A DNA stretch of 64,000 bases from Apostichopus japonicus (lineage: Eukaryota; Echinodermata; Holothuroidea; Aspidochirotida; Stichopodidae). The stretch covers positions 6,302,001 to 6,366,000 of the forward strand of contig NC_092562.1 of the NCBI RefSeq assembly GCF_037975245.1. Reading direction: 5' to 3'. This document shows positions 1 to 54,870 of the stretch, piece after piece. The notes beneath the pieces are model-generated. The model had not been told where the DNA came from, searched no databases, and was given only the letters and a program-made list of their open reading frames with translations. Position 1 is the first letter of the stretch; each line of letters begins with the position of its first letter. The translations under genes and the position numbers were made by a program.

Positions 1-420
1 AAAATATCCAGTTAAGTGATACAGCAAATCCGTAGTGCGTATTGAAAGTTATAACACTTGGCGACGATTAAAACATGCAAGAACCTTTATGGACGGGCTG
101 TAGGCAGATGCGATTTGAATTCTCTCGAGTATCATAGAGTCTTGGAGAGCACCCCCCCCCACCACCCCTTAGGATACATGTTAAAGTTTAGACGTCAAAT
201 AATGAGTTTTCCACATATATTTAGACTATAAATTAGGTCTATCTTAGGTCTCAAAGTAAGGTTGTGCTAATAATTTGAATGTTAAGAAATATAAAAGTGT
301 TTTCGCGACTGAATCTTTTGTCCAATTGACGATGTAGAGGAAGAGGGGCGCGCATACCCCTGCCCACCCCTTTTTTGCACATCACTGTTCCTTTACTAAT
401 GTTATACACTATGATCTTAC

Positions 421-554
421 CAGGCGTAACTTCTTGTTTTTGTGTTGTTTAACAGCAATTATTATAAGGACCAAACTGAGGGCTATTGTGGCGATGATGA
501 CAATTACGAAGAATATGACGGAACCACCGCCTGCTTGAGAATTCTGTCGTGTAC
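421..554 (-). CDS. Gene A transmembrane exon
   Basis: Acceptor TTTTTTATCTCAG precedes 554 (phase 1) and donor GTAAGA follows 421 (phase 0). The exon encodes a short Gly-rich juxtamembrane linker (NSQAGGGS), about 20 strongly hydrophobic residues (core VIFFVIVIIATIALSLVLII) and a basic stop-transfer stretch KQHKNKKLR. This fits a single-pass type I helix with its C-terminus in the cytoplasm. If the donor were not used, translation would end three residues later. The gene B copy at 33194 has the same length, phases and basic tail. Confidence 0.85.
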
Positions 555-3500
555 CTGAGATAAAAAATATATGGATGATACCACTGAAAGTTGAATTTAT
601 AATGCATGAAAGTAACCACGTTAACATTCACTATCAAACTTGAATATGACATAACAAGACAATGATCTGCTAATCACCTTTAAAGCAGTAGGTGGGCAAA
701 AGTTTAAATAAATCTGAATGGGGGTGATGCGTGATCCATAGTGCGTCTACAACAAGAAAGGCAACAGACGGACGTTGGTTTTCGATATGTTTATCAAACA
801 GAATTAACCTTCATTTGTGTCTTGAATATCGAAATGCACGAAAGGGTCTAAATCTGCAGAAAGATGTGGAGGGTAGGCAATTTACACGACTGTGGGCTTA
901 GAATGGGCATGGCAGCAGGTTCCTTCTAGTGAGTATCGAGGCTTCGGTTCCCGTTGCTGCCAATATTGCATAGTCGTAACTTGACGAATAAGTGGCAGCT
1001 ATCAATTGAGAGGTAACTTTAACCTAATGAGAGCTTCTACTTGTCATAGTCGTTGGTGGGAATGGAGAGTTTCAGGTCATTGGGGCATCGATATGTGGCT
1101 AAGTATTCACCTAAACGTGGCTCGCTATGAACGTCTTGTTTATCCAAATTTGAAATGCATCATTAAATAAATTGAAAATAAAGTTACAGTCTCGAAAGTG
1201 TGTATTACAAATATGTAAGTATTTACAAGAAATTAGCAGCAGTACGAAAATGCTTGTTAAACCGAACAGCATTCCCTGAACGAGAAACATTAAAATCAGA
1301 TGGCTTGTAAAGGGCTTCTCATCGTGGCGCTCTTCGACATCTTCAACTTCCAAGAGATACGCCCTATATCTTACCTGACTCCAAATGTCTGATTGGGTGA
1401 GGAACACTCTCAGCTATTTCGTTGCCACTTCTGTCGATTGCAATAACCCGCACAGCTGTCACATTAATGACCTCGAATGCGGAAAGAGAAAACTTTCTTG
1501 TGCTTGGTTCGAGCTTTGGTGATATATCAAACCAATCATCCATTCCGTGGTATTGAACCTGCACAAATAACCCCTCTATCGGATTTCTGTCATCCACATA
1601 CCAGGAGAGGGTGAAATTTTCAGGGAAAGATGAAGACTGGAAAACCAAGATTGTAGTTACTGAAAATTGAACAAATTAATAAAGATATAGCAGTATACAA
1701 CCAGGGAGTAGCCATGATGGCACCAGTGAGACATCCCTCATTCAACACTGTAACATGATCATAGCCCACATTGAGGGCCGATGGAGTCAGATGTAGATTT
1801 CTGAAAACGGCATTACATTTTATCAAACTATATTTATGAATTACTCCTGGATTGTTTCAACAAATCATTGTTAATTATATCAGATTTTATTACAACCTTG
1901 TCGCGCGCACTTTTTTCATGATACAGTATATCGTTTAACCAGCAAATCTAAAGTTGACAACAACAAAAACACAAAACACCAACAAAAATGAAAGAAAGAA
2001 ACTGTTTCAGTCATTGCATTCTTTCGAAACGTAATTGCTTGTGAAAGCAAATATTCGAAGTTTGTTGTCTGTGTTCCTATCCACCAGATAGAATTCTTAA
2101 AATCACAAGGGTTTATGTTTCGAATAATTACATAACGGATTTGTTAAATGATGTCATTGTTTTGTGCTTGTGCGATAATTTACCCATATCTAACTACTGT
2201 TATATAAATCTCAAATTAAGGCGACACCGTTAACAACATTGTCTAGCAAACCCAAGTGTATTTCTTCACAACGAGACCTTGTTATTGAGTAATAATTATC
2301 ATTACTATTCTGCACGTTTCGTTACTCAAGCACGTTTAATACAAGGAAAACCATCAAAGGATGGGAAATACTTCCTTGCAGGTGCTGGCGATATACTAAA
2401 AGTAGTATATATATACGAGACAATTTTAAGCTTGTTTCTGTTCATACTTCCAAACTTTAAATCGCAAAGAACTATAATTTATACTTCAACTGTGAGCGGA
2501 AGTGAAACTTCAAGCAATAACATGATATATTATTGAAGCTGACAAAGAAATGATAAGAAATATAGTCTTGCCATTCGTTTGGGTAGAGGTACTTCTTTGG
2601 GCTGTTACAGGGAGGTTTGGTGATGAATCAGTGATGATGGTCGTTTCTGGTGGAATAAGAGTAACAGGATGCGGTTGACTGATCGAATTCTTTTTCGCAT
2701 AGATTAATGATTCGCTCATTCACAGCTGTGCAATGTTATTATCTTCAATTAAGACTCTTAATGAGAAATATAGGTAGCACGTGTGAATAATTTAGAAGAA
2801 GTTAAATAGAAACTAAAGACATGAAAATTGGGGATAGATTACATTAAAAGACACTTGTTAACTTCTATGCTAATATCAGGTTATGTAAGTGAAAGCTCAT
2901 AAAAGAAAGATTCTATAGGTGGAAATTCAACTGCCTAAGCCTGGGACGAGTGTAGTTACGCAATACTCTTACCTTCTAGCGGGTTGTTGCAAAAGCTGTA
3001 ATCACAAAAACATGCTTTACCGGTCGTAGTAAGCATAAAATCAAGACCCACATAGTCAGCTGACGTTACACATGGGTCTGCATTTAATTGATCAGCACTT
3101 TTGCAACCTCTTTCCAAAAGGAATACGGGGTTACCTACTGCCAAATAAGAAAACGTTAATATAAAGGAAGGTAAAAGGCAAATAGTAAAGTGACATCATT
3201 ACATGTTCTGCTCGTTTCAGTACGGATACATAAGACAAAAAGATGTGAAAGATAATCAAAAGCAACCATAACCTTTACCGTTTATAATGGATATGTTTAA
3301 TTGTAGATAGTTCATGTCTACATTGGGTTTCAAACGGCAAGGAGAATGTAAGGAATACAATAAACATATTACACAAAAATGTACCTTCAATGAATATTTG
3401 AATGTTGACATAACTGCAAATATCTCCGTTACTACAAGTCTCTGTTCCAATCCGTCCAGTTTCACAATCTCTACCACTACAAGCGAAACAGGTTAGAGTT

Positions 3501-6500
3501 TCTGCAAATACAAATATAAACAATGACGACATGTTAAGTTCGTTGTGCTCGATATTTTAAATGGATACAGAACGTTTAGCTATTTGCTTGAACTGGCATT
3601 TGATAAAATACGTTGTTACATAATCCTATAACATACATTTCTAAAGTGTCTCATTCGAGGTAACAAATGGCCTATAATTCAGAGAATGACATAATTACGG
3701 TGAAAAAAAATCACTAATTGCTGAACGCTTTCATCAGAAATTTATTAAGAAGCAGTTATGTTGGTAGTTGCTGAAAAGCAAAGATTCGTGGTAGGAATAC
3801 CTGGTGCCTCGAAGCTCGTAGATGGGAGGGTGATTTTAGAATCAGTAAATGTGGTTGTTTGTAACGAGTTCATAGTTGTTGTAGAGACAACTGCTGGTTT
3901 GGAACTCGTAGAAGGCAGGTTTGGTGATGAATCAGTTATAATAGTAGTTTCTGATGGAATAAGAGAAGAAGGTTGCGGATGACTAATCGAATTCCTATCC
4001 GCATGGATTAATGTTAAGCTTATTCACAGCTGTAAAATATCATTATATTCAATTTAGACGTTTTATGCAAAGATAGGTAGCCCGTGCCAATAATTTAGAA
4101 AACAAGTTCAATAGAAAACGGAGGACATGAAAATTGAGGAAATTTAACATTAAATAAAACCCTTCGTTTTCTCTATAATAATATCAGATAATGTAAGTAA
4201 AAGCTCATAACAGAAAGATTCTATAGGTGGAAATTCAACTGCCTAAGCTCGGGATGAGTGTAGTTACGCAATACTCTTACCTTCTAGCGGGTTGTTGCAA
4301 AAGCTGTAATCACAAAAACATGCTTCACCGGTCGTAGTAAGCATAAAATCAAGACCCACATAGTCAGCTGACGTAACACATGGGTCTGCATTAAATTGAT
4401 TAGCACTTTTGCAACCTCTTTCCAAAAGGAATACGGGGTTACCTACTGCCAAATTAAGAAAACGTTAATATAAAGGAAGGTAAAAGGCAAATAGAAAAGT
4501 GACATCATTACATGTTCTGCTCGTTTCAGTACGGATACATAAGACAAAAAGATGTGAAAGATAATCAAAAGCAACCACAACCTTTACCGTTTATATTGGA
4601 TATGTTAAAATGTGGATAATTCATTTCTACATTGGGTTTCAAACGGCAAGGAGAATGTAATGAATACAATGAACATATTACAAAAAAATGTACCTTCAAT
4701 GAATATTTGAATGTTGACATAACTGCAAATATCTCCGTTACTACAAGTCTCTGTTCCAATCCGTCCAGTTTCACAATCTCTACCACTACAAGCGAAACAG
4801 GTTAGAGTTTCTGCAAATACAAATATAAACAATGACGACATGTTAAGTTCGTTGTGCTCGATATTTTAAATGGATATAGAACGTTTGGCTATTTGCATGA
4901 ACTGGTAATTGATATGATACGAGGTTATGGATTAATATGAATTTAGAAGAAAAATCGGTTAAACTATGGTTTCTAAAAATATTCATGAAGTAGGTTGAGG
5001 AACTTGAAAACAAATGGTTCACGTAAAATTGATATGAATTGTTTAAAGGGTGTGAAGACTCGCGCACAAAGAAAAGTCTCATGCCGGTAATCTGACTTAG
5101 TTTCGAATGAAGTGTAGCAGAAGTGTTAGACACAACCATCGATCCCAGAAAATACACACACAGCTTGCTTCCGTCGGTAATTAGACACTAGTAGTCAATA
5201 CATACAGCTACCGTCAATACCCACAGCACACTGTACATAGCAGCGATGGAAATCTCAGGTCTAGATAAAAGATAACAAGGTATCACGTTTCATTACTGTC
5301 TGCATTTTTTAGCGACAAGGAGAAAACTTCACTTGCAAGCAACGGAAAGTTAACTTTTTTAGAGCACGGCACGCGGTTTGGGGCGAGTCTTCAATGCCTT
5401 TAAGTTAATGGACACTGACGTTTTGTGATAGCAACATAGTTATTTGATTTAATGCAATGCTGCAAAGGCGTTGGTGGAATAACTATATCATGTGAATAAT
5501 ACAACTAGCACTGAAAAGTAAAATTCAAACATTAATGACTTCAGAAGGTGGAAAACGCAAAAGTAAGTATTTTAAATAAATGATATTTATGCTAGTCGGT
5601 AATACAGTATTATAGGTACGTTTCAGAACGATCATTCTTGTCACGATGATGGGTTATTAAAAAATGCATTTCATTAATTATATCGGATATGAAATTAATG
5701 CAAACATACGCAATGCCTGCTTTATGGACATAGTACACGCAGTCACATTATTTCTCTGTTTGAGATTATCTGTGGTAGAGTTGGAATTGTGAAGGATTAC
5801 CAAACAATGTTGTTGCAATACTGCTGTGTAAAGAGAGTTAATACCTCAATATTTCGGTTTATTTATTAAACAGCTTTCTTGAATCATAGTTTGTATTCGC
5901 AAATAATTGAAGATTCTTATTTGGATATTTGAGAACATTTTAGCATAGACGTTTAAGTAATGAGATATATTACAATCATTTCAAGTGTCACAAATAACGA
6001 ATTATTAGAACAAAGATATCGTATCCAACGACCTTACTTTCAGGGCCTTTAATTATTATCAGATACGAATGCCAATGCTCGCAATTCTTACGTGTGACAC
6101 ATTGTACATGTGTTAACGGAATACCCGTGCAGACTAGGATCAATAATTCCGAAACGTTTCTGTGTTTGAACATAATCGCATACCTGGCGTTGACTGGGAT
6201 TGTGAAGAACTGTCAAACAATGTAGTTGCAGCAGCTCTAGATAACGGAGAATGGGTGGTCCTTTCTGTTGGTTGAAAAAAATATGAATTTATCATATGTA
6301 AAATCCTCTAAAATCTTATAGCTCATTAAAATTTCTAATTCGGATACTTCAGAACTTTCTAAATCAAGACAATTCACAAATGACTTTAAGTGGAAATTGG
6401 AAAGTTATTGTTTTAGAGAAAATACTAAATACCTGTTGTTTTCTGGGATTGTGAAGAACTCTCAAACAATGTAGTTGCAGCAGAGCTAGGTAAAGGAGAA

Positions 6501-9500
6501 GTGGTGGCCCTTTCTGTTGGTTTAAAACAAAATTATCATATGTAAAATCCTCTAAAATCTTATAGCTCATTAAATGTTCTATTTCGTATACTTTAGAACT
6601 TTCTAAATAAAAACAATCCACAAATGACTTTAAGTGGACATTGGAAAACATTGTTCTAGAGAAAATACTTAAATACCTGATGTTGTCTGGGATTTTGAAG
6701 AACTGTCAAACAATGTAGTTGCAGCAGAGCTAGATAAAGGAGAAGTGGTGGTCCTTTCTGTTGGTTTAAAAAAATATGAATTTATCATGTAACATCTTCC
6801 AAAATCCTATGGTCAATACAATTTCTAATTCGGATACTTCAGAGCTTTCTAAATAAGTGGATATTTATTTTTCAAGAGAAAATACTTAAATACCTGTTGT
6901 TGTCTGGTATGGTGAAGAACTGTCAAACAATGTAGTTGCAGCAGAGCTAGATAAAGGTGAAGTGGTGGCCCTATCTGTTGGTTTTAAAATAAATATTAAT
7001 TTATCATATGTAAAATCCTCTAATATCTTATAGCTCATTAAATGTTCTATTTCGGTTACTTCAGAACTTTCTAAATGTAAACAATACACACATGACTTTG
7101 AGTGGACATTGAAAAACTATTTTATAGAGAAAATACTAAATACCTGTTCTTTTCTGGGATTGTGAAGAACTCTCAAACAATGTAGTTGCAGCAGAGCTAG
7201 GTAAAGGAGAAGTGGTGGCCCTTTCTGTTGGTTTAAAACAAAATTATCATATGTAAAATCCTCTAAAATCTTATAGCTCATTGAATGTTCTATTTTGGAT
7301 TCTTCAGGACTTTCTAAATAAAAACAATCCACACATGACTTTAAGTGGACATTGGAAATATATTGTTCTAGAGAAAATACTTAAATACCTGTTGTTGTCT
7401 GGGATTTTGAAGAACTGTCAAACAATGTAGTTGCAGCAGAGCTGGATAAAAGAGAAGTGGTGGTCCTTTCTGTTGGTTTAAAAAAAATATGAATTTATCA
7501 TGTAACATCTTCCAAAATCTTATGGTCAATTACAATTTCTAATTCGGATACTTCAGAACTTTCTAAATAAGTGGATATTTATTTTTCAAGAGAAAATACT
7601 TAAATACCTGTTGTTGTCTGGTATGGTGAAGAACTGTCAAACAATGTAGTTGCAGCAGAGCTAGATAAAGGTGAAGTGGTGGCCCTATCTGTTGGTTTTA
7701 AAATAAATATTAATTTATCATATGTAAAATCCTCTAATATCTTATAGCTCATTAAATGTTCTATTTCGGTTACTTCAGAACTTTCTAAATGTTAACAATA
7801 CACACATGACTTTGAGTGGACATTGAAAAACTATTTTATAGAGAAAATACTAAATACCTGTTCTTTTCTGGGATTGTGAAGAACTCTCGAACAATGTAGT
7901 TGCAGCAGAGCTAGGTAAAGGAGAAGTGGTGGCCCTTTCTGTTGGTTTAAAACAAAATTATCATATGTAAAATCCTCTAAAATCTTATAGCTCATTGAAT
8001 GTTCTATTTTGGATTCTTCAGGACTTTCTAAATAAAAACAATCCACACATGACTTTAAGTGGACATTGGAAATATATTGTTCTAGAGAAAATACTTAAAT
8101 ACCTGTTGTTGTCTGGGATTTTGAAGAACTGTCAAACAATGTAGTTGCAGCAGAGCTGGATAAAAGAGAAGTGGTGGTCCTTTCTGTTGGTTTAAAAAAA
8201 ATATGAATTTATCATGTAACATCTTCCAAAATCTTATGGTCAATTACAATTTCTAATTCGGATACTTCAGAACTTTCTAAATAAGTGGATATTTATTTTT
8301 CAAGAGAAAATACTTAAATACCTGTTGTTGTCTGGTATGGTGAAGAACTGTCAAACAATGTAGTTGCAGCAGAGCTAGATAAAGGTGAAGTGGTGGCCCT
8401 ATCTGTTGGTTTTAAAATAAATATTAATTTATCATATGTAAAATCCTCTAATATCTTATAGCTCATTAAATGTTCTATTTCGGTTACTTCAGAACTTTCT
8501 TAATGTAAACAATAAACACATGACTTTGAGTGGACATTGAAAAACTATTTTATAGAGAAAATACTAAATACCTGTTGTTTTCTGGGATTGTGAAGAACTC
8601 TCAAACAATGTAGTTGCAGCAGAGCTAGGTAAAGGAGAAGTGGTGGCCCTTTCTGTTGGTTTAAAACAAAATTATCATATGTAAAATCCTCTAAAATCTT
8701 ATAGCTCATTAAATGTTCTATTTCGTATACTTTAGAACTTTCTAAATAAAAACAATCCACAAATGACTTTAAGTGGACATTGGAAATATATTGTTCTAGA
8801 GAAAATACTTAAATACCTGATGTTGTCTGGGATTTTGAAGAACTGTCAAACAATGTAGTTGCAGCAGAGCTAGATAAAGGAGAAGTGGTGGTCCTTTCTG
8901 TTGGTTTAAAAAAATATGAATTTATCATGTAACATCTTCCAAAATCCTATGGTCAATACAATTTCTAATTCGGATACTTCAGAGCTTTCTAAATAAGTGG
9001 ATATTTATTTTTCAAGAGAAAATACTTAAATACCTGTTGTTGTCTGGGATTTTGAAGAACTGTCAAACAATGTAGTTACAGCAGAGCTGGATAAAGGAGA
9101 AGTGGTGGCCCTTTCTGTTGGTTTTAAAATAAATATTAATTTATCATATTTAAAATCCTCTAATATCTTATAGCTCATTAAATGTTCTATTTCGGTTACT
9201 TCAGAACTTTCTAAATGTAAACAATACACACATGACTTTGAGTGGACATTGAAAAACTATTTTATAGAGAAAATACTAAATACCTGTTGTTGTCTGGGAT
9301 TGTAAAGAACTGTCAAACACTGTAGTTGCCGCAGAGCTAGGTAAAGGAGTAGTGGTGGTCCATTCTGTTGTTTTAAAAAAATATGAATTTATCATGTAAC
9401 ATCTTCCAAAATCCTATGGTCAATACAATTTCTAATTCGGATACTTCAGAGCTTTCTAAATAAGTGGATATTTATTTTTCAAGAGAAAATACTTAAATAC

Positions 9501-12500
9501 CTGTTGTTGTCTGGTATGGTGAAGAACTGTCAAACAATGTAGTTGCAGCAGAGCTAGATAAAGGTGAAGTGGTGGCCCTATCTGTTGGTTTTAAAATAAA
9601 TATTAATTTATCATATGTAAAATCCTCTAATATCTTATAGCTCATTAAATGTTCTATTTCGGTTACTTCAGAACTTTCTAAATGTAAACAATACACACAT
9701 GACTTTGAGTGGACATTGAAAAACTATTTTATAGAGAAAATACTAAATACCTGTTGTTTTCTGGGATTGTGAAGAACTCTCAAACAATGTAGTTGCAGCA
9801 GAGCTAGGTAAAGGAGAAGTGGTGGCCCTTTCTGTTGGTTTAAAACAAAATTATCATATGTAAAATCCTCTAAAATCTTATAGCTCATTGAATGTTCTAT
9901 TTTGGATTCTTCAGGACTTTCTAAATAAAAACAATCCACACATGACTTTAAGTGGACATTGGAAATATATTGTTCTAGAGAAAATACTTAAATACCTGTT
10001 GTTGTCTGGGATTTTGAAGAACTGTCAAACAATGTAGTTGCAGCAGAGCTGGATAAAAGAGAAGTGGTGGTCCTTTCTGTTGGTTTAAAAAAAATATGAA
10101 TTTATCATGTAACATCTTCCAAAATCTTATGGTCAATTACAATTTCTAATTCGGATACTTCAGAACTTTCTAAATAAGTGGATATTTATTTTTCAAGAGA
10201 AAATACTTAAATACCTGTTGTTGTCTGGTATGGTGAAGAACTGTCAAACAATGTAGTTGCAGCAGAGCTAGATAAAGGTGAAGTGGTGGCCCTATCTGTT
10301 GGTTTTAAAATAAATATTAATTTATCATATGTAAAATCCTCTAATATCTTATAGCTCATTAAATGTTCTATTTCGGTTACTTCAGAACTTTCTAAATGTA
10401 AACAATAAACACATGACTTTGAGTGGACATTGAAAAACTATTTTATAGAGAAAATACTAAATACCTGTTCTTTTCTGGGATTGTGAAGAACTCTCAAACA
10501 ATGTAGTTGCAGCAGAGCTAGGTAAAGGAGAAGTGGTGGCCCTTTCTGTTGGTTTAAAACAAAATTATCATATGTAAAATCCTCTAAAATCGTATAGCTC
10601 ATTAAATGTTCTATTTCGTATACTTTAGAACTTTCTAAATAAAAACAATCCACAAATGACTTTAAGTGGACATTGGAAAATATAGTTCTAGAGAAAATAC
10701 TTAAATACCTGATGTTGTCTGGGATTTTGAAGAACTGTCAAACAATGTAGTTACAGCAGAGCTGGATAAAGGAGAAGTGGTGGCCCTTTCTGTTGGTTTT
10801 AAAATAAATATTAATTTATCATATTTAAAATCCTCTAATATCTTATAGCTCATTAAATGTTCTATTTCGGTTACTTCAGAACTTTCTAAATGTAAACAAT
10901 ACACACATGACTTTGAGTGGACATTGAAAAACTATTTTATAGAGAAAATACTAAATACCTGTTGTTTTCTGGGATTGTAAAGAACTGTCAAACACTGTAG
11001 TTGCCGCAGAGCTAGGTAAAGGAGTAGTTGTGGTCCTTTCTGTTGTTTTAAAAAAATATGAATTTATCATGTAACATCTTCCAAAATCCTATGGTCAATA
11101 CAATTTCTAATTCGGATACTTCAGAGCTTTCTAAATAAGTGGATATTTATTTTTCAAGAGAAAATACTTAAATACCTGTTGTTGTCTGGTATGGTGAAGA
11201 ACTGTCAAACAATGTAGTTGCAGCAGAGCTAGATAAATGTGAAGTGGTGGCCCTATCTGTTGGTTTTAAAATAAATATTAATTTATCATATGTAAAATCC
11301 TCTAATATCTTATAGCTCATTAAATGTTCTATTTCGGTTACTTCAGAACTTTCTAAATGTAAACAATACACACATGACTTTGAGTGGACATTGAAAAACT
11401 ATTTTATAGAGAAAATACTAAATACCTGTTCTTTTCTGGTATGGTGAAGAACTCTCAAACAATGTAGTTGCAGCAGAGCTAGGTAAAGGAGAAGTGGTGG
11501 CTCTTTCTGTTGGTTTAAAACAAAATTATCATATGTAAAATCCTCTAAAATCGTATAGCTCATTAAATGTTCTATTTCGTATACTTTAGAACTTTCTAAA
11601 TAAAAACAATCCACAAATGACTTTAAGTGGACATTGGAAAATATAGTTCTAGAGAAAATACTTAAATACCTGATGTTGTCTGGGATTTTGAAGAACTGTC
11701 AAACAATGTAGTTACAGCAGAGCTGGATTAAGGAGAAGTGGTGGCCCTTTCTGTTGGTTTTAAAATAAATATTAATTTATCATATGTAAAATCCTCTAAT
11801 ATCTTATAGCTCATTAAATGTTCTATTTCGGTTACTTCAGAACTTTCTAAATGTAAACAATACACACATGACTTTGAGTGGACATTGAAAAACTATTTTA
11901 TAGAGAAAATACTAAATACCTGTTGTTTTCTGGGATTGTGAAGAACTCTCAAACAATGTAGTTGCAGCAGAGCTAGGTAAAGGAGAAGTGGTGGCCCTTT
12001 CTGTTGGTTTAAAACAAAATTATCATATGTAAAATCCTCTAAAATCTTATAGCTCATTGAATGTTCTATTTTGGATTCTTCAGGACTTTCTAAATAAAAA
12101 CAATCCACACATGACTTTAAGTGGACATTGGAAATATATTGTTCTAGAGAAAATACTTAAATACCTGTTGTTGTCTGGGATTTTGAAGAACTGTCAAACA
12201 ATGTAGTTGCAGCAGAGCTGGATAAAAGAGAAGTGGTGGTCCTTTCTGTTGGTTTAAAAAAAATATGAATTTATCATGTAACATCTTCCAAAATCTTATG
12301 GTCAATTACAATTTCTAATTCGGATACTTCAGAACTTTCTAAATAAGTGGATATTTATTTTTCAAGAGAAAATACTTAAATACCTGTTGTTGTCTGGTAT
12401 GGTGAAGAACTGTCAAACAATGTAGTTGCAGCAGAGCTAGATAAAGGTGAAGTGGTGGCCCTATCTGTTGGTTTTAAAATAAATATTAATTTATCATATG

Positions 12501-15500
12501 TAAAATCCTCTAATATCTTATAGCTCATTAAATGTTCTATTTCGGTTACTTCAGAACTTTCTAAATGTAAACAATAAACACATGACTTTGAGTGGACATT
12601 GAAAAACTATTTTATAGAGAAAATACTAAATACCTGTTGTTTTCTGGGATTGTGAAGAACTCTCAAACAATGTAGTTGCAGCAGAGCTAGGTAAAGGAGA
12701 AGTGGTGGCTCTTTCTGTTGGTTTAAAACAAAATTATCATATGTAAAATCCTCTAAAATCGTATAGCTCATTAAATGTTCTATTTCGTATACTTTAGAAC
12801 TTTCTAAATAAAAACAATCCACAAATGACTTTAAGTGGACATTGGAAAATATAGTTCTAGAGAAAATACTTAAATACCTGATGTTGTCTGGGATTTTGAA
12901 GAACTGTCAAACAATGTAGTTACAGCAGAGCTGGATAAAGGAGAAGTGGTGGCCCTTTCTGTTGGTTTTAAAATAAATATTAATTTATCATATTTAAAAT
13001 CCTCTAATATCTTATAGCTCATTAAATGTTTTATTTCGGTTACTTCAGAACTTTCTAAATGTAAACAATACACACATGACTTTGAGTGGACATTGAAAAA
13101 CTATTTTATAGAGAAAATACTAAATACCTGTTGTTTTCTGGGATTGTAAAGAACTGTCAAACACTGTAGTTGCCGCAGAGCTAGGTAAAGGAGTAGTGGT
13201 GGTCCTTTCTGTTGTTTTAAACAAATTTTGAATTTATCATGTTACATCTTCTAAATTCTTATGGTCCATTAAAATTTCTTATTCGGATACTTCAGAACTT
13301 ACTAAATAAAAGCAATCCACAAATGTCTTTTAGTGGACATTGGATTTTTTTTGAGAAAATACTATATATCTTTTGTTTTCTGGGATTGTGAAGAACTGTC
13401 AAACACTGTAGTTGCAGCAGAGCTAGGTAAGGGAGTAGTGGTGGTCCTTTCTGTTGTTTTAAACAAAATTTGAATTCATCATGTTACATCTTCTAAATTC
13501 TTATGGTCCATTACCATTTCTTATTTGGATACTTCAGAACTTTCTAAATAAGTGGATATTTATTTTTCTAGAGAAAATAATTTAATACCTTTTGTTGTCA
13601 GGGATTGTGAAGAACTGTCAAACAATGTAGTGGCAGCAGAGGTAGGTAAAGGGGAAATGGTGGTTCTTTCTGTTGGTTTAAAAAAATACGATTTATCATA
13701 AAACATCCTATAAATTTTTATGATCCATTAAAATGTCTAATTCGGGTACTTCAGAACTTCCTAAATAAAAACAATCCACAAATGACTTTAAGTGGACATT
13801 GAAAAACTATGTTATATAGAAAATACTAAATACCTGTTGTTTTCTGGGATTGTGAAGAACTGTCAAACAATGTAGTTGCAGCAGAGCTAGGTAAAGGAGA
13901 AGTGGTGGCCCTTTCTGTTGGTTTAAAGAAAAATATGAATTTATCATGTAAAATCCTCTAAAATCTTATGGTCCATTAAAATTTCTGATTCGGATACTTC
14001 AGAACCTACTAAATAAAAACAATCCACAAATGTCTTTTAGTGGACATATGGATTTTTTTTTCTCGAGAATGTACTATATACCTGTTGTTTTCTGGGATTG
14101 TGAAGAACTGTCAAACACTGTAGTTGCCGCAGAGCTAGGTAAGGGAGTATTGGTGGTCCGTTCTGTTGGTTTAAACCAAAAATATGAATTTATCATGTTA
14201 CATCTTCTAAATTCTTATGGTCCATTAAAATTTCTTATTCGGATACTTCAGAACTTACTAAATAAAAGCAATCCACAAATGTCTTTTAGTGGACATTGGA
14301 TTTTTTTTGAGAAAATACTATATATCTGTTGTTTTCTGGGATTGTGAAGAACTGTCAAACACTGTAGTTGCAGCAGAGCTAGGTAAAGGAGTAGTGGTGG
14401 TCCCTTCTGTTGTTTTAAACAAAATTTGAATTTATCATGTTACATCTTCTAAATTCTTATGGTCCATTACCATTTCTTATTTGGATACTTCAGAACTTTC
14501 TAAATAAGTGGATATTTATTTTTCTAGAGAAAATAATTTAATACCTTTTGTTGTCAGGGATTGTGAAGAACTGTCAAACAATGTAGTGGCAGCAGAGGTA
14601 GGTAAAGGGGAAATGGTGGTTCTTTCTGTTAGTTTAAAAAAAATACGATTTATCATAAAACATCCTATAAATTTTTATGGTCCATTAAAATGTCTAATTC
14701 GGGTACTTCAGAACTTCCTAAATAAAAACAATCCACAAATGACTTTAAGTGGACATTGAAAAACTATGTTATATAGAAAATACTAAATACCTGTTGTTTT
14801 CTGGGATTGTGAAGAACTGTCAAACAATGTAGTTGCAGCAGAGCTAGGTAAAGGAGAAGTGGTGGCCCTTTCTGTTGGTTTAAAGAAAAATATGAATTTA
14901 TCATGTAAAATCCTCTAAAATCTTATGGTCCATTAAAATTTCTGATTCGGATACTTCAGAACCTACTAAATAAAAACAATCCACAAATGTCTTTTAGTGG
15001 ACATATGGATTTTTTTTCTCGAGAATGTACTATATACCTGTTGTTTTCTGGGATTGTGAAGAACTGTCAAACACTGTAGTTGCCGCAGAGCTAGGTAAGG
15101 GAGTATTGGTGGTCCGTTCTGTTGGTTTAAACCAAAAATATGAATTTATCATGTTACATCTTCTAAATTCTTATGGTCCATTAAAATTTCTTATTCGGAT
15201 ACTTCAGAACTTACTAAATAAAAGCAATCCACAAATGTCTTTTAGTGGACATTGGATTTTTTTGAGAAAATACTATATATCTGTTGTTTTCTGGGATTGT
15301 GAAGAACTGTCAAACACTGTAGTTGCAGCAGAGCTAGGTAAAGGAGTAGTGGTGGTCCCTTCTGTTGTTTTAAACAAAATTTGAATTTATCATGTTACAT
15401 CTTCTAAATTCTTATGGTCCATTACCATTTCTTATTTGGATACTTCAGAACTTTCTAAATAAGTGGATATTTATTTTTCTAGAGAAAATAATTTAATACC

Positions 15501-18500
15501 TTTTGTTGTCAGGGATTGTGAAGAACTGTCAAACAATGTAGTGGCAGCAGAGGTAGGTAAAGGGGAAATGGTGGTTCTTTCTGTTGGTTTAAAAAAATAC
15601 GATTTATCATAAAACATCCTATAAATTTTTATGGTCCATTAAAATGTCTAATTCGGGTACTTCAGAACTTCCTAAATAAAAACAATCCACAAATGACTTT
15701 AAGTGGACATTGAAAAACTATGTTATATAGAAAATACTAAATACCTGTTGTTTTCTGGGATTGTGAAGAACTGTCAAACAATGTAGTTGCAGCAGAGCTA
15801 GGTAAAGGAGAAGTGGTGACCCTTTCTGTTGGTTTAAAGAAAAATATGAATTTATCATGTAAAATCCTCTAAAACCTTATGGTCCATTAAAATTTCTGAT
15901 TCGGATACTTCAGAACCTACTAAATAAAAACAATCCACAAATGTCTTTTAGTGGACATATGGATTTTTTTTTCTCGAGAATGTACTATATACCTGTTGTT
16001 TTCTGGGATTGTGAAGAACTGTCAAACACTGTAGTTGCCGCAGAGCTAGGTAAGGGAGTATTGGTGGTCCGTTCTGTTGGTTTAAACCAAAAATATGAAT
16101 TTATCATGTTACATCTTCTAAATTCTTATGGTCCATTAAAATTTCTCATTCGGATACTTCAGAACTTACTAAATAAAAGCAATCCACAAATGTCTTTTAG
16201 TGGACATTGGATTTTTTTTGAGAAAATACTATATATCTGTTGTTTTCTGGGATTGTGAAGAACTGTCAAACACTGTAGTTGCAGCAGAGCTAGGTAAAGG
16301 AGTAGTGGTGGTCCCTTCTGTTGTTTTAAACAAAATTTGAATTTATCATGTTACATCTTCTAAATTCTTATGGTCCATTACCATTTCTTATTTGGATACT
16401 TCAGAACTTTCTAAATAAGTGGATATTTATTTTTCTAGAGAAAATAATTTAATACCTTTTGTTGTCAGGGATTGTGAAGAACTGTCAAACAATGTAGTGG
16501 CAGCAGAGGTAGGTAAAGGGGAAATGGTGGTTCTTTTTGTTTGTTTAAAAAAATACGATTTATCATAAAACATCCTATAAATTTTTATGGTCCATTAAAA
16601 TGTCTAATTCGGGTACTTCAGAACTTCCTAAATAAAAACAATCCACAAATGACTTTAAGTGGACATTGAAAAACTATGTTATATAGAAAATACTAAATAC
16701 CTGTTGTTTTCTGGGATTGTGAAGAACTGTCAAACAATGTAGTTACAGCAGAGCTGGATAAAGGAGAAGTGGTGGTCCTTTCTGTTGGTTTAAAAAAAAT
16801 ATGAATTTATCATGTAACATCTTCCAAAATCCTATGGTCAATTACAATTTCTAATTCGGATACTTCAGAACCTACTAAATAAGTGGATATTTATTTTTCA
16901 AGAGAAAATACTTAAATACCTGTTGTTGTCTGGTATGGTGAAGAACTCTCAAACAATGTAGTTGCAGCAGAGCTAGGTAAAGGAGAAGTGGTGGCCCTTT
17001 CTGTTGGTTTAAAAAAATTATCATATGTAAAATCCTCTAAAATCTTATAGCTCATTAAATGTTCTATTCGTATACTTTAGAACTTTCTCAATAAAAACAA
17101 TCCACAAATGACTTTAAGTGGACATTGGAAAATATTGTTCTAGAGAAAATACTTAAATACCTGATGTTGTCTGGGATTGTGAAGAACTGTCAAACAATGT
17201 AGTTGCAGCAGAGCTGGATAAAGGAGAAGTGGTGGTCCTTTCTGTTGGTTTAAACAAAAATATGAATTTATCATATGTAAAATCCTCTCAAATCTTATGG
17301 TCCATGACAATTTCTTATTCGGATACTTCAGAACTTTCTAAATAAGTGGCTATTAATTTTCCTAGAGAAAATACTTTAATACCTTTTGTTGTCTGGGATT
17401 GTGAAGAACTGTCAAACAATGTAGTTGCAGCAGAGCTAGGTAAAAGAGAAGTGGTGCTCCTTTCTGTTGGTTTAAACAAAAATTTCAATTTATCATGTAA
17501 CATGCTCGAAAATTTTATAGCCCATTGAATATTCTAATTCGGATACTTCAGAACTTTCTAAGTAAAAACAATCCACAAATGACTTTAAGTGAACATTGAA
17601 AAGATATTTTTATAGAGAAAATACTTTATACCTTTTGTTGTATGGGATTGTGAAGAACTGTCAAACAATGTAGTTGCAGCAGAGCTAGGTAAAGGAGAAG
17701 CGGTGGTTCTCTCTGTTGGATTAAACAAAAATATCAATTTATCATGTAACATGCTCGAAAATTTTATAGCCCATTGAATATTCTAAATCGGATACTTTAG
17801 AACTTCCTAAATAAGTGGATATTTATTTTCCTAGAGAAAATACTTTAATACCTTTTGTTGTCTTTAATTGGACATTGGAAATTTATTTTTCTCGAGAAAA
17901 TACTTTGTACCTTTTGTTGTATGGGATTGTGAAGAACTGTCAAACAATGTAGTTGCAGCAGAGCTAGGTAAAGGAGAAGTGGTGGTCCTTTCCGTTGGTT
18001 TAAACAAAAATATGAATTTATCATATGTAAAATCCTCTAAAATCTGATGGTCCATGACAATTTCTTATTCGGATACTTCAGAACTTTCTAAATAAGTGGA
18101 TATTTATTTTCCTAGAGAAAATTCTTTAATACCTTTTGTTGTCTGGGATTGTGAAGAACTGTCAAACAATGTAGTTACAGCAGAGCTGGATAAAGGAGAA
18201 GTGGTGGTCCTTTCTGTTGGTTTAAAAAAAATATGAATTTATCATGTAACATCTTCCAAAATCCTATGGTCAATTACAATTTCTAATTCGGATACTTCAG
18301 AACCTACTAAATAAGTGGATATTTATTTTTCAAGAGAAAATACTTAAATACCTGTTGTTTTCTGGTATGGTGAAGAACTGTCAAACAATGTAGTTGCAGC
18401 AGAGCTAGGAAAAAGAGAAGTGGTGGTCCTTTCTGTTGGTTTAAACAAAAATTTCAATTTATCATGTAACATGCTCGAAAATTTTATAGCCCATTGAATA

Positions 18501-21500
18501 TTCTAAATCGGATACTTCAGAACTTTCTAAGTAAAAACAATCCACAAATGACTTTAAGTGGACATTGAAAAGATATTTTTATAGAGAAAATACTTTATAC
18601 CTTTTGTTGTATGGGATTGTGAAGAACTGTCAAACAATGTAGTTGCAGCAGAGCTAGGTAAAGGAGAAGCGGTGGTTCTCTCTGTTGGATTAAACAAAAA
18701 TATCAATTTATCATGTAACATGCTCGAAAATTTTATAGCCCATTGAATATTCTAAATCGGATACTTCAGAACTTCCTAAATAAAAACAATCCACAAATGA
18801 CTTTAAGTGGACATTGAAAAGATGTTTTTATTAAGAAAATACTTTATACCTTTTGTTGTCAGGGATTGTGAAGAACTGTCAAACAATGTAGTTGCAGCAG
18901 AGCTAGGTAAAGGAGAAGTGGTGGTCCTTTCTGTTGGTTTAAACAAAAATATGAATTTATCATATGTAAAATCCTCTCAAATCTTATGGTCCATGACAAT
19001 TTCTTATTCGGATACTTCAGAACTTTCTAAATAAGTGGATATTTATTTTCCTAGAGAAAATACTTTAATACCTTTTGTTGTCTGGGATTGTGAAGAACTG
19101 TCAAACAATTTAGCTGCAGCAGAGCTAGGTAAAGGAGAAGTGGTGGTCCTTTCTGTTGGTTTGAACAAAATATGAATTTATCATAAAACATCCTCTAAAT
19201 GCTTATGGTCCATTAAAATTTCTAATTCGGATACTTCAGAACTTCCTAAATAAAAACAATTCACAAATGTCTTTATGTGGACATTGGAAATCTATTTTTC
19301 TCGAGAAAATACTTTATACCTTTTGTTGTCAGGGATTGTGAAGAACTGTCATACAATGTAGTTGCAGCAGAGCTAGGTAAAGGAGAAGTGGTGGTCCTTT
19401 CTGTTGGTTTAAACAAAAATATGAATTTATCATATGTAAAATCCTCTCAAATCTTATGGTCCATGACAATTTCTTATTCGGATACTTCAGAACTTTCTAA
19501 ATAAGTGGCTATTAATTTTCCTAGAGAAAATACTTTAATACCTTTTGTTGTCTGGGATTGTGAAGAACTGTCAAACAATGTAGTTGCAGCAGAGCTAGGT
19601 AAAAGAGAAGTGGTGCTCCTTTCTGTTGGTTTAAACAAAAATTTCAATTTATCATGTAACATGCTCGAAAATTTTATAGCCCATTGAATATTCTAAATCG
19701 GATACTTCAGAACTTTCTAAGTAAAAACAATCCACAAATGACTTTAAGTGAACATTGAAAAGATATTTTTATAGAGAAAATACTTTATACCTTTTGTTGT
19801 ATGGGATTGTGAAGAACTGTCAAACAATGTAGTTGCAGCAGAGCTAGGTAAAGGAGAAGCGGTGGTTCTCTCTGTTGGATTAAACAAAAATATCAATTTA
19901 TCATGTAACATGCTCGAAAATTTTATAGCCCATTGAATATTCTAAATCGGATACTTCAGAACTTCCTAAATAAAAACAATCCACAAATGACTTTAAGTGG
20001 ACATTGAAAAGATGTTTTTATTAAGAAAATACTTTATACCTGTTGTTGTCAGGGATTGTGAAGAACTGTCATACAATGTAGTTGCAGCAGAGCTAGGTAA
20101 AGGAGAAGTGGTGGTCCTTTCTGTTGGTTTAAACAAAAATATGAATTTATCATATGTAAAATCCTCTAAAATCTTATGGTACATGACAATTTCTTATTCG
20201 GAAACTTCAGAACTTTCTAAATAAGTGGATATTTATTTTCCTACTGAAAATACTTTAATACCTTTTGTTGTCTTTAATTGGACATTGGAAATTTATTTTT
20301 CTAGAGAAAATACTTTGTACCTTTTGTTGTATGGGATTGTGAAGAACTGTCAAACAATGTAGTTGCAGCAGAGCTAGGTAAAGGAGAAGTGGTGGTCCTT
20401 TCCGTTGGTTTAAACAAAAATATGAATTTATCATATGTAAAATCCTCTAAAATCTGATGGTCCATGACAATTTCTTATTCGGATACTTCAGAACTTTCTA
20501 AATAAGTGGATATTTATTTTCCTAGAGAAAATTCTTTAATACCTTTTGTTGTCTGGGATTGTGAAGAACTGTCAAACAATGTAGTTGCAGCAGAGCTAGG
20601 TAAAGGAGAAGTGGTGGTCCTTTCTGTTGGTTTAAACAAAAATATGAATTTATCATATGTAAAATCCTCTAAAATCTTATGGTACATGACAATTTCTTAT
20701 TCGGATACTTCAGAACTTTCTAAATAAGTGGATATTTATTTTCCTAGAGAATATAATTTAATACCTTTTGTTGTCTTTAATTGGACATTGGAAATTTATT
20801 TTTCTCGAGAAAATACTTTATACCTTTTGTTGTATGGGATTGTGAAGAACTGTCAAACAATGTAGTTGCAGCAGAGCTAGGTAAAGGAGAAGTGGTGGTC
20901 CTTTCTGTTGGTTTAAACAAAAATATGAATTTATCATATGTAAAATCCCCTAAAATCTTATCAGGTTAGTTTAGTAGAAAAAAGGATCAGGAGGGACACT
21001 TAAGTCCTTATGGTCCATGACAATTTCTTATTCGGATACTTCAGAACTTTCTAAATAAGTGGATATTTATTTTCCTACAGAAAATACTTTAATACCTTTT
21101 GTTGTCTTTAATTGGACATTGGAAATTTATTTTTCTAGAGAAAATACTTTATACCTTTTGTTGTATGGGATTGTGAAGAACTGTCAAACAATGTAGTTGC
21201 AGCAGAGCTAGGTAAAGGAGATGTGGTGATTCTCTCTGTTGGTTTAAACAAAAATATCAATTTATCATGTAACATGCTCGAAAATTTTATAGCCCATTGA
21301 ATATTCTAAATCGGATACTTCAGAACTTTCTAAGTAAAAACAATCCACAAATGACTTTAAGTGGACATTGAAAAGATATTTTTATAGAGAAAATACTTAA
21401 ATACCTGTTGTTGTCTGGGGTTGTGAAGAACTGTCAAACAATGTAGTAGCAGCAGAGCTGGATAAAGGAGAAGCGGTGGTATTTTCTGTTGGTTTAAAAA

Positions 21501-24500
21501 AATGAATTTATCCTTTAACATCCTTTAAAATCATATAGTACATTAAATTAATAATTCGGATCATTTTTATTATTATTATTATTTATTATTATAAGCAGTA
21601 CCGCTCTAAAATGTTTTTCATTTGAGATTCTCACTTAAACCGTCTTGATGGCGACATATTACACGCTTAGGCTGACATTATAGTCACTATACACACCACA
21701 GTTGGGTCCTGTGAAGCCCTCAGGACAGATGCAATGCAGCGGGTTGCTAATACATGTCCCTCCATTTTGGCAAATGTCGGGATCAATTCGACAAAAATCT
21801 GCATGAAAAGAACAAAGAATAGAGAGTTCCTCAGTCATTTTAACCATTTAGCACAATAACATAAATATTGACTAATGGGCAATTACACTGTCTCTCATTT
21901 ATACCAAAAGTAGTCTCGTGATGATTCCAGTGTCCGATAAAGATAGAAGTCACACCACACGATATTTCTATACTGGTTTCAGCTCCTTTTAAAGTTAAGT
22001 CTTTTGGGGCCTCTTGGAAGTTTTCCTGTAGCCCTGAAGTCATCCATGTTCAAAGTTGACTTGATAACACGACCTGTCTTCATGTCTTAAGATACAATGT
22101 TGTTTAATGTTTAATTTCACTAGTAAAATATAACTATAGACAAATGGTAATACGTTAAGGGTTTTGCCTATTGATAGCACTATGGCACATGTTTTGTTCC
22201 AATAACAGATCTTTCTACTTTGGTGTATCATCCGAAACAGCTTTTGCGTACTTTGATATTCGCAGTGTTCTCTAGCTATAACCGAATTGACGATATTTGT
22301 GTTTGTTTCTTCAATCTATAGGTTGACCTCTCCATATCTACCCAGGGCCTCCTCACACATGGGCGGCGATCATGGGGGGGGGGACGGGGGGGACATGTCC
22401 CCCCCAATATTTTTGTTGGGGGGGATATAGTATCTAATATCCCCCCCAATATTTGGTGGCATAGTTTTTTTTTAAGCATATGTTTTGTATTTTTTTATGA
22501 TATCGCTAGTAATTTCAAAATAGAAAATGCTTAGATGCAACTTAAAAGGCCTGGGAAGTGCCATTTCCAGCAATCTGGGAGGCATTTTCGGCCAAAATTT
22601 TCTTTTGCGCTTCGCGCCAACTTATGGTGGCGCTACGCTTAGATGGTCTGGGTACAAGCTTTGCCCCTCCCTTGGCAAATTCCTCACAAGGCGCCTGTTT
22701 AACCGTGTCACAATTTGTTACTATATATGACCGAAAGTAGTTTTTACTTTTTTTCGAAATGAATAGCTAGACGGACCGCATCCGTAATGAAAGTTGGTTG
22801 GAATCTTGTGTATGAGTGTAAGTACGTACAATCACACATATGATCCACATCGATATGGGTTCACTGGGTTTCCATTTGGCCTGTTTCCTACAAGATTTCT
22901 AACCGCAGGTGCTTAGCCAAGGGAGGGGGGGGGGGGTGAAGGGTGGAGACCGCCCTCCCCCTAGAGCATATTTTTTGGGTATTTTCTATGATATCAAAGT
23001 TTTATAGTAGCCGTTATAAGAGGTTTCAATATTTTTACACCAATAATTTAACTGTGTCTGCATTTTCGAAAATTCTTTGAACAACATTCTTCATCATTCT
23101 TCCCTCTACTCGTGCAATTTTGACCGGTCTGTTAGGGGTTGAGGCAAGGGCGGCGGAACCGGGGGGCACAGGGGGCACGTGCCCCCCCCCACTTTTCCTC
23201 AGGTTAAAAATGTGCCCTTTTCTACATAAAAATTGAGGTGTCTCAAGTTAGCAAGAGGCCAGGGAACCAGAATGAACACTCGGGAAGGGCCGTTTCCGGC
23301 CATCTGAGGGGTTTGTAAAACCAAAAATTTTCTTGGACGCTCCGCGCCAACCAATGGTGGCGCTCCGCTCGCTATTTCGAATGGAAAAAAATTGTGAAGA
23401 TATTAACAAGAAATAAACTCTAATTCGGAAGATTCCTACATTAGCAACTAGCATGATTTCACCTAATTTTGTCTCAAAAGAAAACTTGTTCCTTGTTTCC
23501 CAATTTGCACATTGGATATTGCAGTGCTAGTATGGATATTTTCATTGGGGGGGGGGGGATGGAATTTGATGGAGTGATGTGTATACGCAAATAAATAAGA
23601 GTTATAAAGGGTACTAAATATAAGGCTGCATCAGTCCAATCGAATTTCTGCAAAGTGCCCTTTGATGTCGGTGCCCCCCCCCCCAGATTGAAAGTGCTTC
23701 CGCCGCCCTTAGGTTGAGGGGGGTTTTCTATATTGGTTGTCCATAGATTAAATTTTGTGCAACATTATGGGTATGTTTTGAAGTGAATTTATTATTCAAA
23801 TTCTGAACAAATATTGGGCTTAAAACCTTGAAAAGTGGGGCTGACGGGTATTAAGGGGCGTTACGTAGAATACCTACAAAAGCAATGATCCACAGGAGAT
23901 GCAATGAGGTCGAACATGATATGTGACTGGTGACAATCTTGAAAAAAGGTATGATGAATGAAGAAAAAAATCTATTAGGTAAAACTTGGTTCTCAGGCAA
24001 AAGTGTACATCTGGTTGGTCATTTTCAAGCCCGAGAAGTGCCATTTCCAGTGATCTGGGGGGCTATCAAAACCAAAAAATTTCTTGTACGCTGCGCGCCA
24101 ACCAATGGTGGCGCTCCGCTTTGATAGTAATTCGCCTGCATCCAAGCAAATGTCCCCCCCCCCCAATATTTGAAACAGATCGCCGCCCCTGTCCTCACAT
24201 TACTATAATTGAAAACATCCACCGATACACACAGAGAACACAGTAACTGCTGTTACTCTTAAAGTTTTGTACCGCAGTAAGAACTGGATCGTGCTATAAA
24301 TCGATAGCATGTGCTATTAGGATTACAATAAGAACTGAGGATATGTGTACTTCCAACAAATCCAGTTGTTGGGATTTATTGGGATGATACATATCCTCAG
24401 TTCTTACTGTAAACCTAATAGCACATGCTACCGATTTATCAGATTTTTCAGCACGATCCAGTATTTACTGTGGTACAAAACTTTAAGATTTACAGTAGTT

Positions 24501-47500: not shown

Positions 47501-48045
47501 GTCAAACAATATTGTCGCAGCAGGGCTGGATAAAGGAGAGTTGGTGGTTCTTTCTGTTGGTTTAAACTAAAATATGAATAAACCTTTCATCATCTCTGGT
47601 AAAGTCGTAGATCATTGGAATTTCTCTCTGTTATACTCGATAACACTTCAACGTAAACAATCTAAAATGTCTCTGTTAGTAAATATTGTAATTGCATATG
47701 GTGTTCTCGAAAATAATAGACACCTGTTGTTGACTGGAACTGTGAAGAACTGTCAAACAATGTAATTAAAGCAGAGCTGAATAAAGGAAAAGTGGTGGTC
47801 CTTTCTAGTGGTTTAAACGTCTATATGAATTTATATAGTAACATCCTTTAAAATCATATAGTCCATTGAATTTCTGATTAGGATTCTTTATAACTTTCCA
47901 AATGAAAACAAATCCGCAAATTCATGTAAGTGAACTTTGGGAAAAGTAACGATTATTGATATATCTGGAAATGTTCGACCGGCTAGATGAACGTTGACAT
48001 CTTTTGCTCTGTTCCGTTAATTTAGATACTGAACACCAATACACA

Positions 48046-48124
<79 letters not shown>

Positions 48125-53935: not shown

Positions 53936-54870
53936 ATGTATCGGAAGTTGCTGCAATGTGAAGATATATATGTCAAAATTAATTTAATATATATTTTGTA
54001 TTTTTCTGTGACAGTATCAAGAAAAAAGAGATTGTGTAATAAGTTACTAGTTGTAAGTCTAGAACTATATAGACCTATTAGTCTCCTTAAAATTGACTAC
54101 AAGATAGGAGCAACAGTATTGGCTAACCGGTTAAAACGGGTCGTCGACAATACTGTTGGGGATAACCAGACTGGTTTTACGAAAATAAGTTTATTGTGGA
54201 AAACATTCTTTTTGTGCTGGACCTGATCGATCACATTACCACAAATAACATTCCGGGTCTTCTGTTTTTTATTGATTTTGAAAAAGCTTTTGATTGTATC
54301 GATTGGAATTTTATTGACTACACTCTTATTTATTTCAACTTTGGGAACAGTTTTCGATGGTGGGTCAAAACACTCTCACTCTATACTTGCAGTTTTTCCT
54401 GTTTTCTAAAAAATGGTAATTCGACAGGTTTCTTCTCTATTCAGAGAGGAGTAAGGCAAGGTTGTCCCCTTAGCCCGTACCTCTTTATTCTATGTGCAGA
54501 TATTTTAGCTAGAACAAATATTTTTGACTCAATCAAGCTTGGTGATCAAAATATTTGGCCGGGAAATTAAAGTACTGCAGTATGCCGACCCCTATCTTCT
54601 TAGAGGGTACCCGCAACAGCACTGTTAAGGTGCTGAATACCTTAGAGAATTTTTGAATAGCATCAGGTCTCAAAATTAATTTCAACAAGTCCAAGTTTCT
54701 TTCCCTGGGTCTTTTCATTTCAAATAATCCAGCTCATGTCAGTGAATTTAATATTTTGATTACTAACGCTCCCATTAGGTATCTCTGTATCAACTTTACT
54801 CACAATGGTGACGATCTCTTTCGCTTAAACTATGAGCAGTTTAGAAAACGGTGTCGAGGAACAACAAGAT
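53936..54870 (+). mobile_element. L1/Tx1-type LINE reverse transcriptase, 5' part, degenerate
   Basis: Reverse-transcriptase blocks on the plus strand: YRPISLLKIDYKIGATVLAN, LKRVVDNTVGDNQTGF, a frameshift near 54195, then LLFFIDFEKAFDCIDWNF and GVRQGCPLSPYLFILCADIL. After about 54575 the frame is lost. The catalytic YADD block is only a trace (QYADPY near 54578). The element is cut by the LINE at 54887-56945 and its C-terminal part may resume at 57050. Confidence 0.75.

Follow-up and report, generated by a model that had tools for sequence, protein, structure and literature searches.

Two related genes occupy much of a 64,000-nucleotide stretch of the genome of the sea cucumber Apostichopus japonicus (contig NC_092562.1, here C2, positions 6,302,001-6,366,000). 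We call this whole stretch the window, and coordinates are window positions unless prefixed with a contig. Both genes are read on the minus strand, and the middle of each is a tandem array of 81-bp, mucin-like putative exons, each with its own intron: gene A has 64 such units, and its paralog, gene B, has 25. A third paralog, gene C, lies outside the window with 41 units, and two diverged relatives, D and E, are found further along at C2:6366001-6413000.

An 81-base exon consensus was run along the minus strand of the window, and every place with at least 45/81 matches was kept. There are 90 such places, and 64 of these lie inside 6184-21485, the first unit of the gene A array being at 21405-21485 and the last at 6184-6264. 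The top plus-strand score of 36/81 rules out a chance repeat or a reading on the wrong strand. The original prediction of 64 phase 1-1 units of 81 bp between these limits was borne out to the base, and its unit size of about 235-240 bp agrees with the measured mean spacing of 239 bp (unit lengths are 217-331 bp, mostly 217-222 or 241-250). It had also given every exon an acceptor and a donor, which proved true of most: acceptor AG, donor GT and open frame are all intact in 56 of the 64, while four donors are AT instead of GT (at 16237, 15281, 14326 and 13370), three acceptors are other than AG (at 20321, 17911 and 16456), and one exon contains a stop codon. Read as G|exon, each unit gives 27 residues, and the array peptides are Ser/Thr-rich tandem repeats of the mucin type, with a Ser+Thr content of 49% (mean) in A, 52% in B and 51% in C. 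That a frame is open says little by itself, because 8% of random 27-codon draws at intron base composition are open; none of 20,000 such draws was open with at least 13 Ser+Thr. An origin of the unit from a tRNA or other structured RNA was dropped, as the window has neither an ARAGORN gene nor an Rfam match.

Does the exon of such a unit evolve differently from its intron? The units of the three arrays were pooled at a threshold of 60/81 (n = 130; A 64, B 25, C 41), a set that excludes the relic at 38507-38587 and the stray at 5771-5851. Intact units make up 56/64 in A, 23/25 in B and 41/41 in C, or 120/130 in total. Donors are GT in 126/130 and acceptors AG in 126/130 as extracted, or 127 with the 78-bp exon of B read three bases in. 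Over all units, exon nucleotide diversity is 0.56 times that of the introns. Among 32 representatives of 95% clusters, divergence is 0.135 in the exon and 0.274 in the intron, a ratio of 0.49 (0.40-0.65); each of 40 equally long, overlapping stretches of intron gives a higher value (0.267-0.307), and the exon is the less diverged part in 410 of 496 pairs. The 146 intron columns carry 16 distinct indels and the exon carries 0, where 8.9 would be expected (P 1.4e-4, or 0.0014 with the in-frame 78-bp exon of B included). Four diverged units of B, which are the oldest-looking of the array units, have 66-75% identity to any other unit, yet AG and GT are kept in 4/4. To judge from these comparisons, constraint acts on the whole exon (its length, its frame and its nucleotide sequence) without synonymous preference. 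The pattern fits what might be expected of a stalk with freely exchangeable residues plus constraint on splicing signals, though it does not prove translation.

The arrays are also strongly homogenised. Mean unit identity within arrays is 0.866 in A, 0.80 in B and 0.90 in C. The units show concerted evolution, in that the best identity within A, 0.982, exceeds the 0.943 to C; only 2/64 units of A have their best match in C, and the closest relative of the other 62 is outside C. Adjacent units of A are no closer to each other than this, with a mean identity at lag 1 of 0.874 and 0/63 pairs at or above 0.97. Identity peaks at lag 4, where 11 successive units match with a mean of 0.993. Whole series of units, 11, 7, 6, 6 and more in length, are repeated in the same order at an identity of 0.99. 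We take these recurring blocks of about 99% identity to indicate recent block-wise unequal exchange. Impaired units have been copied too: four units belonging to the 4-unit blocks share an AT donor, and two units have a GG acceptor. Gain and loss of units by unequal crossing-over, which the original prediction had proposed, is supported as a probable process by the higher-order blocks and by the paralog copy numbers of 64/25/41.

Could the count of 64 be an artefact of assembly, in which the repeat was collapsed or expanded? Assembly is known to be at risk where long arrays contain 99% blocks, and one assembly only is behind the count. On the other side, the array of gene A is not a monotone repeat, since adjacent units differ to the extent just given, and the published A. 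japonicus assembly is described, in the part of the paper available, as PacBio HiFi with a contig N50 of 17.2 Mb (PMC10344927). We regard an artefact as very improbable.

On either side of its array, gene A has the predicted exons of a modular protein (Table 1). A first exon and an EGF exon come before it, and after it come two Ly6-like modules joined by a Ser/Thr linker exon, a Ser/Thr exon with a tail like a glycosylphosphatidylinositol (GPI) signal, an FN3-like exon and a transmembrane exon. Gene B spans 51279 to 33182 with the same order and also two Ly6 modules; its array, the second in the window, consists of 21 units and the four diverged ones. Every internal non-array exon of genes A and B has AG/GT, a length divisible by three and phase 1-1. 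Gene C (C2:6295400-6266322) repeats the order of A, and five of its core exons, checked for phase and splice sites, support the gene model. The Ly6-like modules are a second kind of module expanded in tandem, in gene C, which has ten of them (20 exons, C2:6279986-6268856) against two each in A and B.

The domain labels differ in firmness. The EGF exons of A and B score above the PF00008 cut-off (Table 1). The Ly6-like module of gene A is below the Pfam cut-offs (QVR 19.4 against 27.3; UPAR_LY6 13.7 against 24.8), as is one Ly6-like module each of D and E, and one module of E passes the QVR cut-off (28.5 against 27.3). The Ly6-like label for gene A is a weak one, resting on sub-cut-off scores and that one passing module. 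FN3-like is a working label only: the 95-residue exon of A has no Pfam fibronectin type III match, and those of the paralogs reach at most 16.2 against a cut-off of 39. The signal peptide and anchor features, namely the hydrophobic N-terminus, the transmembrane exon and the GPI-like tail, were read by eye. As for the EGF exons of A, B and C (the last at C2:6293752-6293850), the first half is strongly different and the second half nearly alike, and the B-C comparison gives 12.5 nonsynonymous and 2.5 synonymous counts. This pattern is suggestive of selection at what would be the distal tip. Elsewhere in the window, open frames at 54166-54567 (+) and 55396-56905 (-) were recognised by eye as possible reverse-transcriptase fragments of a retrotransposon of the kind lacking long terminal repeats (non-LTR).

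Table 1. Exons, arrays and stray units of genes A and B (window positions)
Feature	Position	Strand	Basis or remark
Gene A exon 1, ATG and signal-peptide-like MKSRKACYLPFLCLLVYQCVSGQII, donor gtaagt, phase 1	24675..24750	-	read by eye
Gene A EGF exon, phase 1-1	21697..21798	-	PF00008 37.1 bits, cut-off 21.5
Gene A array, 64 mucin-like 81-bp exons, introns 138-250 bp	6184..21485	-	consensus scan; 56/64 intact
Part of gene A array with 4-unit higher-order repeat, contains all 4 AT-donor exons	13370..16781	-	lag-4 identity 0.993
Decayed stray unit outside gene A array	5771..5851	-	stop, GT donor lost
Gene A Ly6-like module 1, exon one, phase 1-1	4694..4810	-	weak profile match, splice sites
Gene A Ly6-like module 1, exon two, phase 1-1	4281..4445	-	weak profile match, splice sites
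Gene A Ser/Thr linker exon, phase 1-1	3801..3950	-	
Gene A Ly6-like module 2, exon one	3385..3501	-	
Gene A Ly6-like module 2, exon two	2973..3137	-	
Gene A Ser/Thr exon, hydrophobic GPI-signal-like tail TIFLIISLSASIIYHVIA, then stop	2510..2646	-	GPI by eye
Gene A conserved 95-residue FN3-like exon, phase 1-1	1375..1659	-	weak paralog match at most
Gene A transmembrane exon (SVIFFVIVIIATIALSLVLIIIAVKQHKNKK), phase 1 acceptor	409..554	-	further donor possible at 420
Gene B signal-peptide exon (predicted)	51204..51279	-	
Gene B EGF exon, phase 1-1	50013..50111	-	PF00008 30.3 bits
Gene B, four diverged mucin-like units	47473..49504	-	AG and GT 4/4, open 3/4
Gene B array, 21 mucin-like exons; one in-frame 78 bp, one with stop at 40856	38661..43676	-	
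Relic unit outside the 130 pooled units	38507-38587		50/81 matches
Gene B Ly6-like module 1	36801..37330 (37214-37330 + 36801-36965)	-	
Gene B Ser/Thr linker exon	36435..36584	-	
Gene B Ly6-like module 2	35607..36135 (36019-36135 + 35607-35771)	-	
Gene B counterpart of GPI-like exon, tail extended, stop 28 codons further	35063..35283	-	
Gene B FN3-like exon, phase 1-1	34112..34396	-	
Gene B transmembrane exon	33182..33327	-	

The more distant relatives D and E keep Ly6-like, FN3-like and transmembrane exons intact, and both have an EGF exon. What E has where A, B and C hold the array is a single phase 1-1 stalk exon of 3,942 nt (C2:6405407-6401466), made of intronless 84-bp repeats, for which the tandem-repeat rows give 18.0 and 25.0 copies. 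BLASTP detected no similarity between its 28-residue repeat and the 27-residue repeat of A, and homology of the two repeats was dropped. A DNA search of the genome with an array segment (671.6 Mb, 35 contigs) had A, B and one place on contig C5 among the matches listed; it gives a lower bound, as only the best candidates were scored and gene C itself is absent from those matches. The C5 place (C5:3148500-3158400, at about 5088-5168) is a lone mucin-exon-like unit with 65/81 matches, its acceptor intact and its donor lost. Several COX1-like pieces with TGA codons were noticed at C29:14745-31219 and look like mitochondrial DNA, or a copy of such DNA, separate from contig C35. Contig C35, the mitochondrial contig, reads well with the echinoderm code, and the gene order taken from its open frames is that of echinoids and holothuroids.

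What, then, is the array of gene A? We think it likely that the array belongs to a real gene and codes for the stalk of a modular sea cucumber mucin, predicted to be membrane-anchored. The original prediction had already described the units as functional-looking exons, with the functional reading given as an inference, and exon-like behaviour is supported by the flanking phase 1-1 exons, the homologous arrays in the two paralogs, the exon-to-intron ratio of 0.49 and the lack of frame-breaking indels. Its interpretation was supported in part, as to exon-like units and unequal exchange, though not as to uniqueness (see below). Its account was also incomplete: it had missed the rest of gene A, the array of gene B, the clustering of the genes and the giant-exon paralog E.

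A number of results weigh against a stalk-coding array. The ratio of nonsynonymous to synonymous change (pN/pS) ranges from 1.22 to 2.01 in five comparisons within and between arrays, and every interval takes in 1; purifying selection on the amino acids of the repeats found no support in this test and was given up. The variant types, 77 missense, 27 synonymous and 2 stop, occur in the proportions expected under neutrality, and stops are not significantly too few (P 0.27). Even in the core exons pN/pS falls short of 1 by only a moderate margin (A-C 0.46, A-B 0.80, B-C 0.87), the A-B and A-C comparisons being made without EGF because of a one-codon length difference. The array donors look weak because a G at +5 is nearly always absent (present in only 2/130 units), and GT conservation, at 0.969, ranks fourth among intron dinucleotides (median 0.838) and so is not uniquely high. 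Finally, there are stops in exon 41 of 64 in the A array (at 11670) and in exons 2 and 16 of 25 in the B array, and a constitutively spliced message would therefore be truncated before the anchor. These stops would predict obligatory skipping of the exons concerned, truncated unanchored products, or decay.

Several of these points would be expected if a mucin exon and its introns had been duplicated as a satellite within an intron, non-coding and skipped, with its exon features a product of youth and homogenisation. Synonymous excess is absent, donors are weak, homogenisation is strong, 8/64 units are impaired, and two of the defects, the AT donor and the GG acceptor, have themselves been duplicated. 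But exon and intron are homogenised together, and yet the exon has half the divergence and no frame-breaking indels. The four B units at 66-75% identity retain AG and GT, all 41 units of gene C are intact, and two stray units outside the arrays, the one at 5771-5851 and the one on C5, have decayed. With these facts in view, an intronic satellite seems to us distinctly unlikely.

A different possibility is that C alone is functional, A and B being copies that have decayed in part or altogether. The single stop in the A array and the two in the B array would fit, and so would the GPI-like exon of B, which has lost the stop position; the core exons of A and B, on the other hand, are all open with intact splice dinucleotides, and we consider decay of A and B unlikely. 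On the GPI-like exon itself, we note that B does not have the stop position shared by A and C, and that its 28 extra residues would spoil a C-terminal GPI signal.

If the gene A array is indeed stalk-coding, its parts might work together as follows. With most units spliced in, the array would give a stalk of up to about 1,700 residues, presumably O-glycosylated, with the EGF domain at its distal end and the Ly6-like modules close to the membrane. The product would end at the GPI-like exon or, with that exon skipped, at the FN3-like and transmembrane exons. Array length would shift through unequal crossing-over between introns of one array. In an array that is phase 1-1 throughout, skipping of an impaired unit costs no frame, and we propose that this is why eight impaired units out of 64 are tolerated.

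More speculatively, one architecture of EGF, mucin stalk, Ly6 and anchor might have built its stalk twice, once as a satellite of mini-exons (25 in B, 41 in C, 64 in A) and once as an intronless exon of 84-bp minisatellite repeats (E). In A, B and C, stalk length would be set by unequal exchange and by in-frame skipping that differs from cell to cell; with an optional switch between GPI and transmembrane anchors and a fast-changing distal EGF, the product could be a receptor for recognition or in the surface coat, with a reach that can be tuned. We offer this whole scheme tentatively, as a possibility that we rather doubt.

How novel is such an arrangement? The classic vertebrate mucins are membrane proteins in which a Ser/Thr/Pro-rich region of variable-number tandem repeats (VNTR) is encoded in one large exon. 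Paralog E follows that design, whereas A, B and C give each repeat its own exon. Tandem gain and loss of phase-compatible exons is familiar from the kringle IV repeats of LPA, the PEVK exons of titin and tenascin-X, where the repeats are folded domains or a muscle spring and no mucin stalk. Transcribed tandem exons encoding 81-base repeats have reportedly been found in Schistosoma (Davis et al. 1988, Mol Cell Biol, by its title); the schistosome genes are of the micro-exon kind, and we take the equal exon length as coincidence.

The closest parallel in organisation is SmPoMuc, the polymorphic mucins of Schistosoma mansoni, and it shows that the original prediction overstated its case in setting the array apart from other mucins, since mucin repeats as tandem exon-plus-intron units are already described there (PMC2576457). 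In the sections of that paper available, SmPoMuc has a 27-bp exon in tandem genomic repeats of about 1 kb, in up to about 20 copies, and transcript variation is demonstrated (PMC2576457). Shared features are a secreted mucin-type product, an in-frame exon length, a repeat exon duplicated in tandem with its introns (here in 64, 25 and 41 units), introns homogenised by concerted evolution, and lengths that differ between loci (PMC2576457). The sea cucumber units differ in being 81 bp in about 240 bp, in 25/41/64 copies and in another phylum, and their genes, known from genomic DNA alone, add EGF, Ly6-like and anchor exons. We claim a likeness of organisation only.

Spider silk genes offer a second comparison. 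In Flag and in Argiope MaSp2, according to the available parts of two papers, repetitive coding units are bounded by iterated, homogenised introns, with higher-order (alternating) units (PMC9779670, PMC3522626), and one cluster mixes paralogs of single-long-exon and iterated exon-intron form (PMC9779670). Silk is not a mucin, and the silk introns have a mean identity within a gene of 97.6% (PMC9779670, PMC3522626), compared with 0.87/0.80/0.90 for the whole units of A/B/C. No description of the present locus, or of an echinoderm membrane-mucin cluster with 64/41/25 mini-exons beside a giant-exon paralog, was found in the searches made of the open-licence literature, and the available part of the Holothuria glaberrima genome preprint contains neither the word mucin nor the word Ly6 (PMC13228809). 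The general idea of tandem repeat exons is thus already known, and the locus of A, B, C and E is a clear variant of it in an echinoderm.

Why some repeats are kept in one exon and others are split among many is an open question, and comparisons of the two designs have mostly been made between distant genes. In this cluster both designs occur in related genes within about 150 kb, at the same position of the protein, so that the effects of mutation, homogenisation and splicing become directly comparable. The locus bears as well on how satellite-like dynamics can go on in coding DNA without breakage of the frame, for the units are all phase 1-1, and in such an array impaired units have even been amplified.

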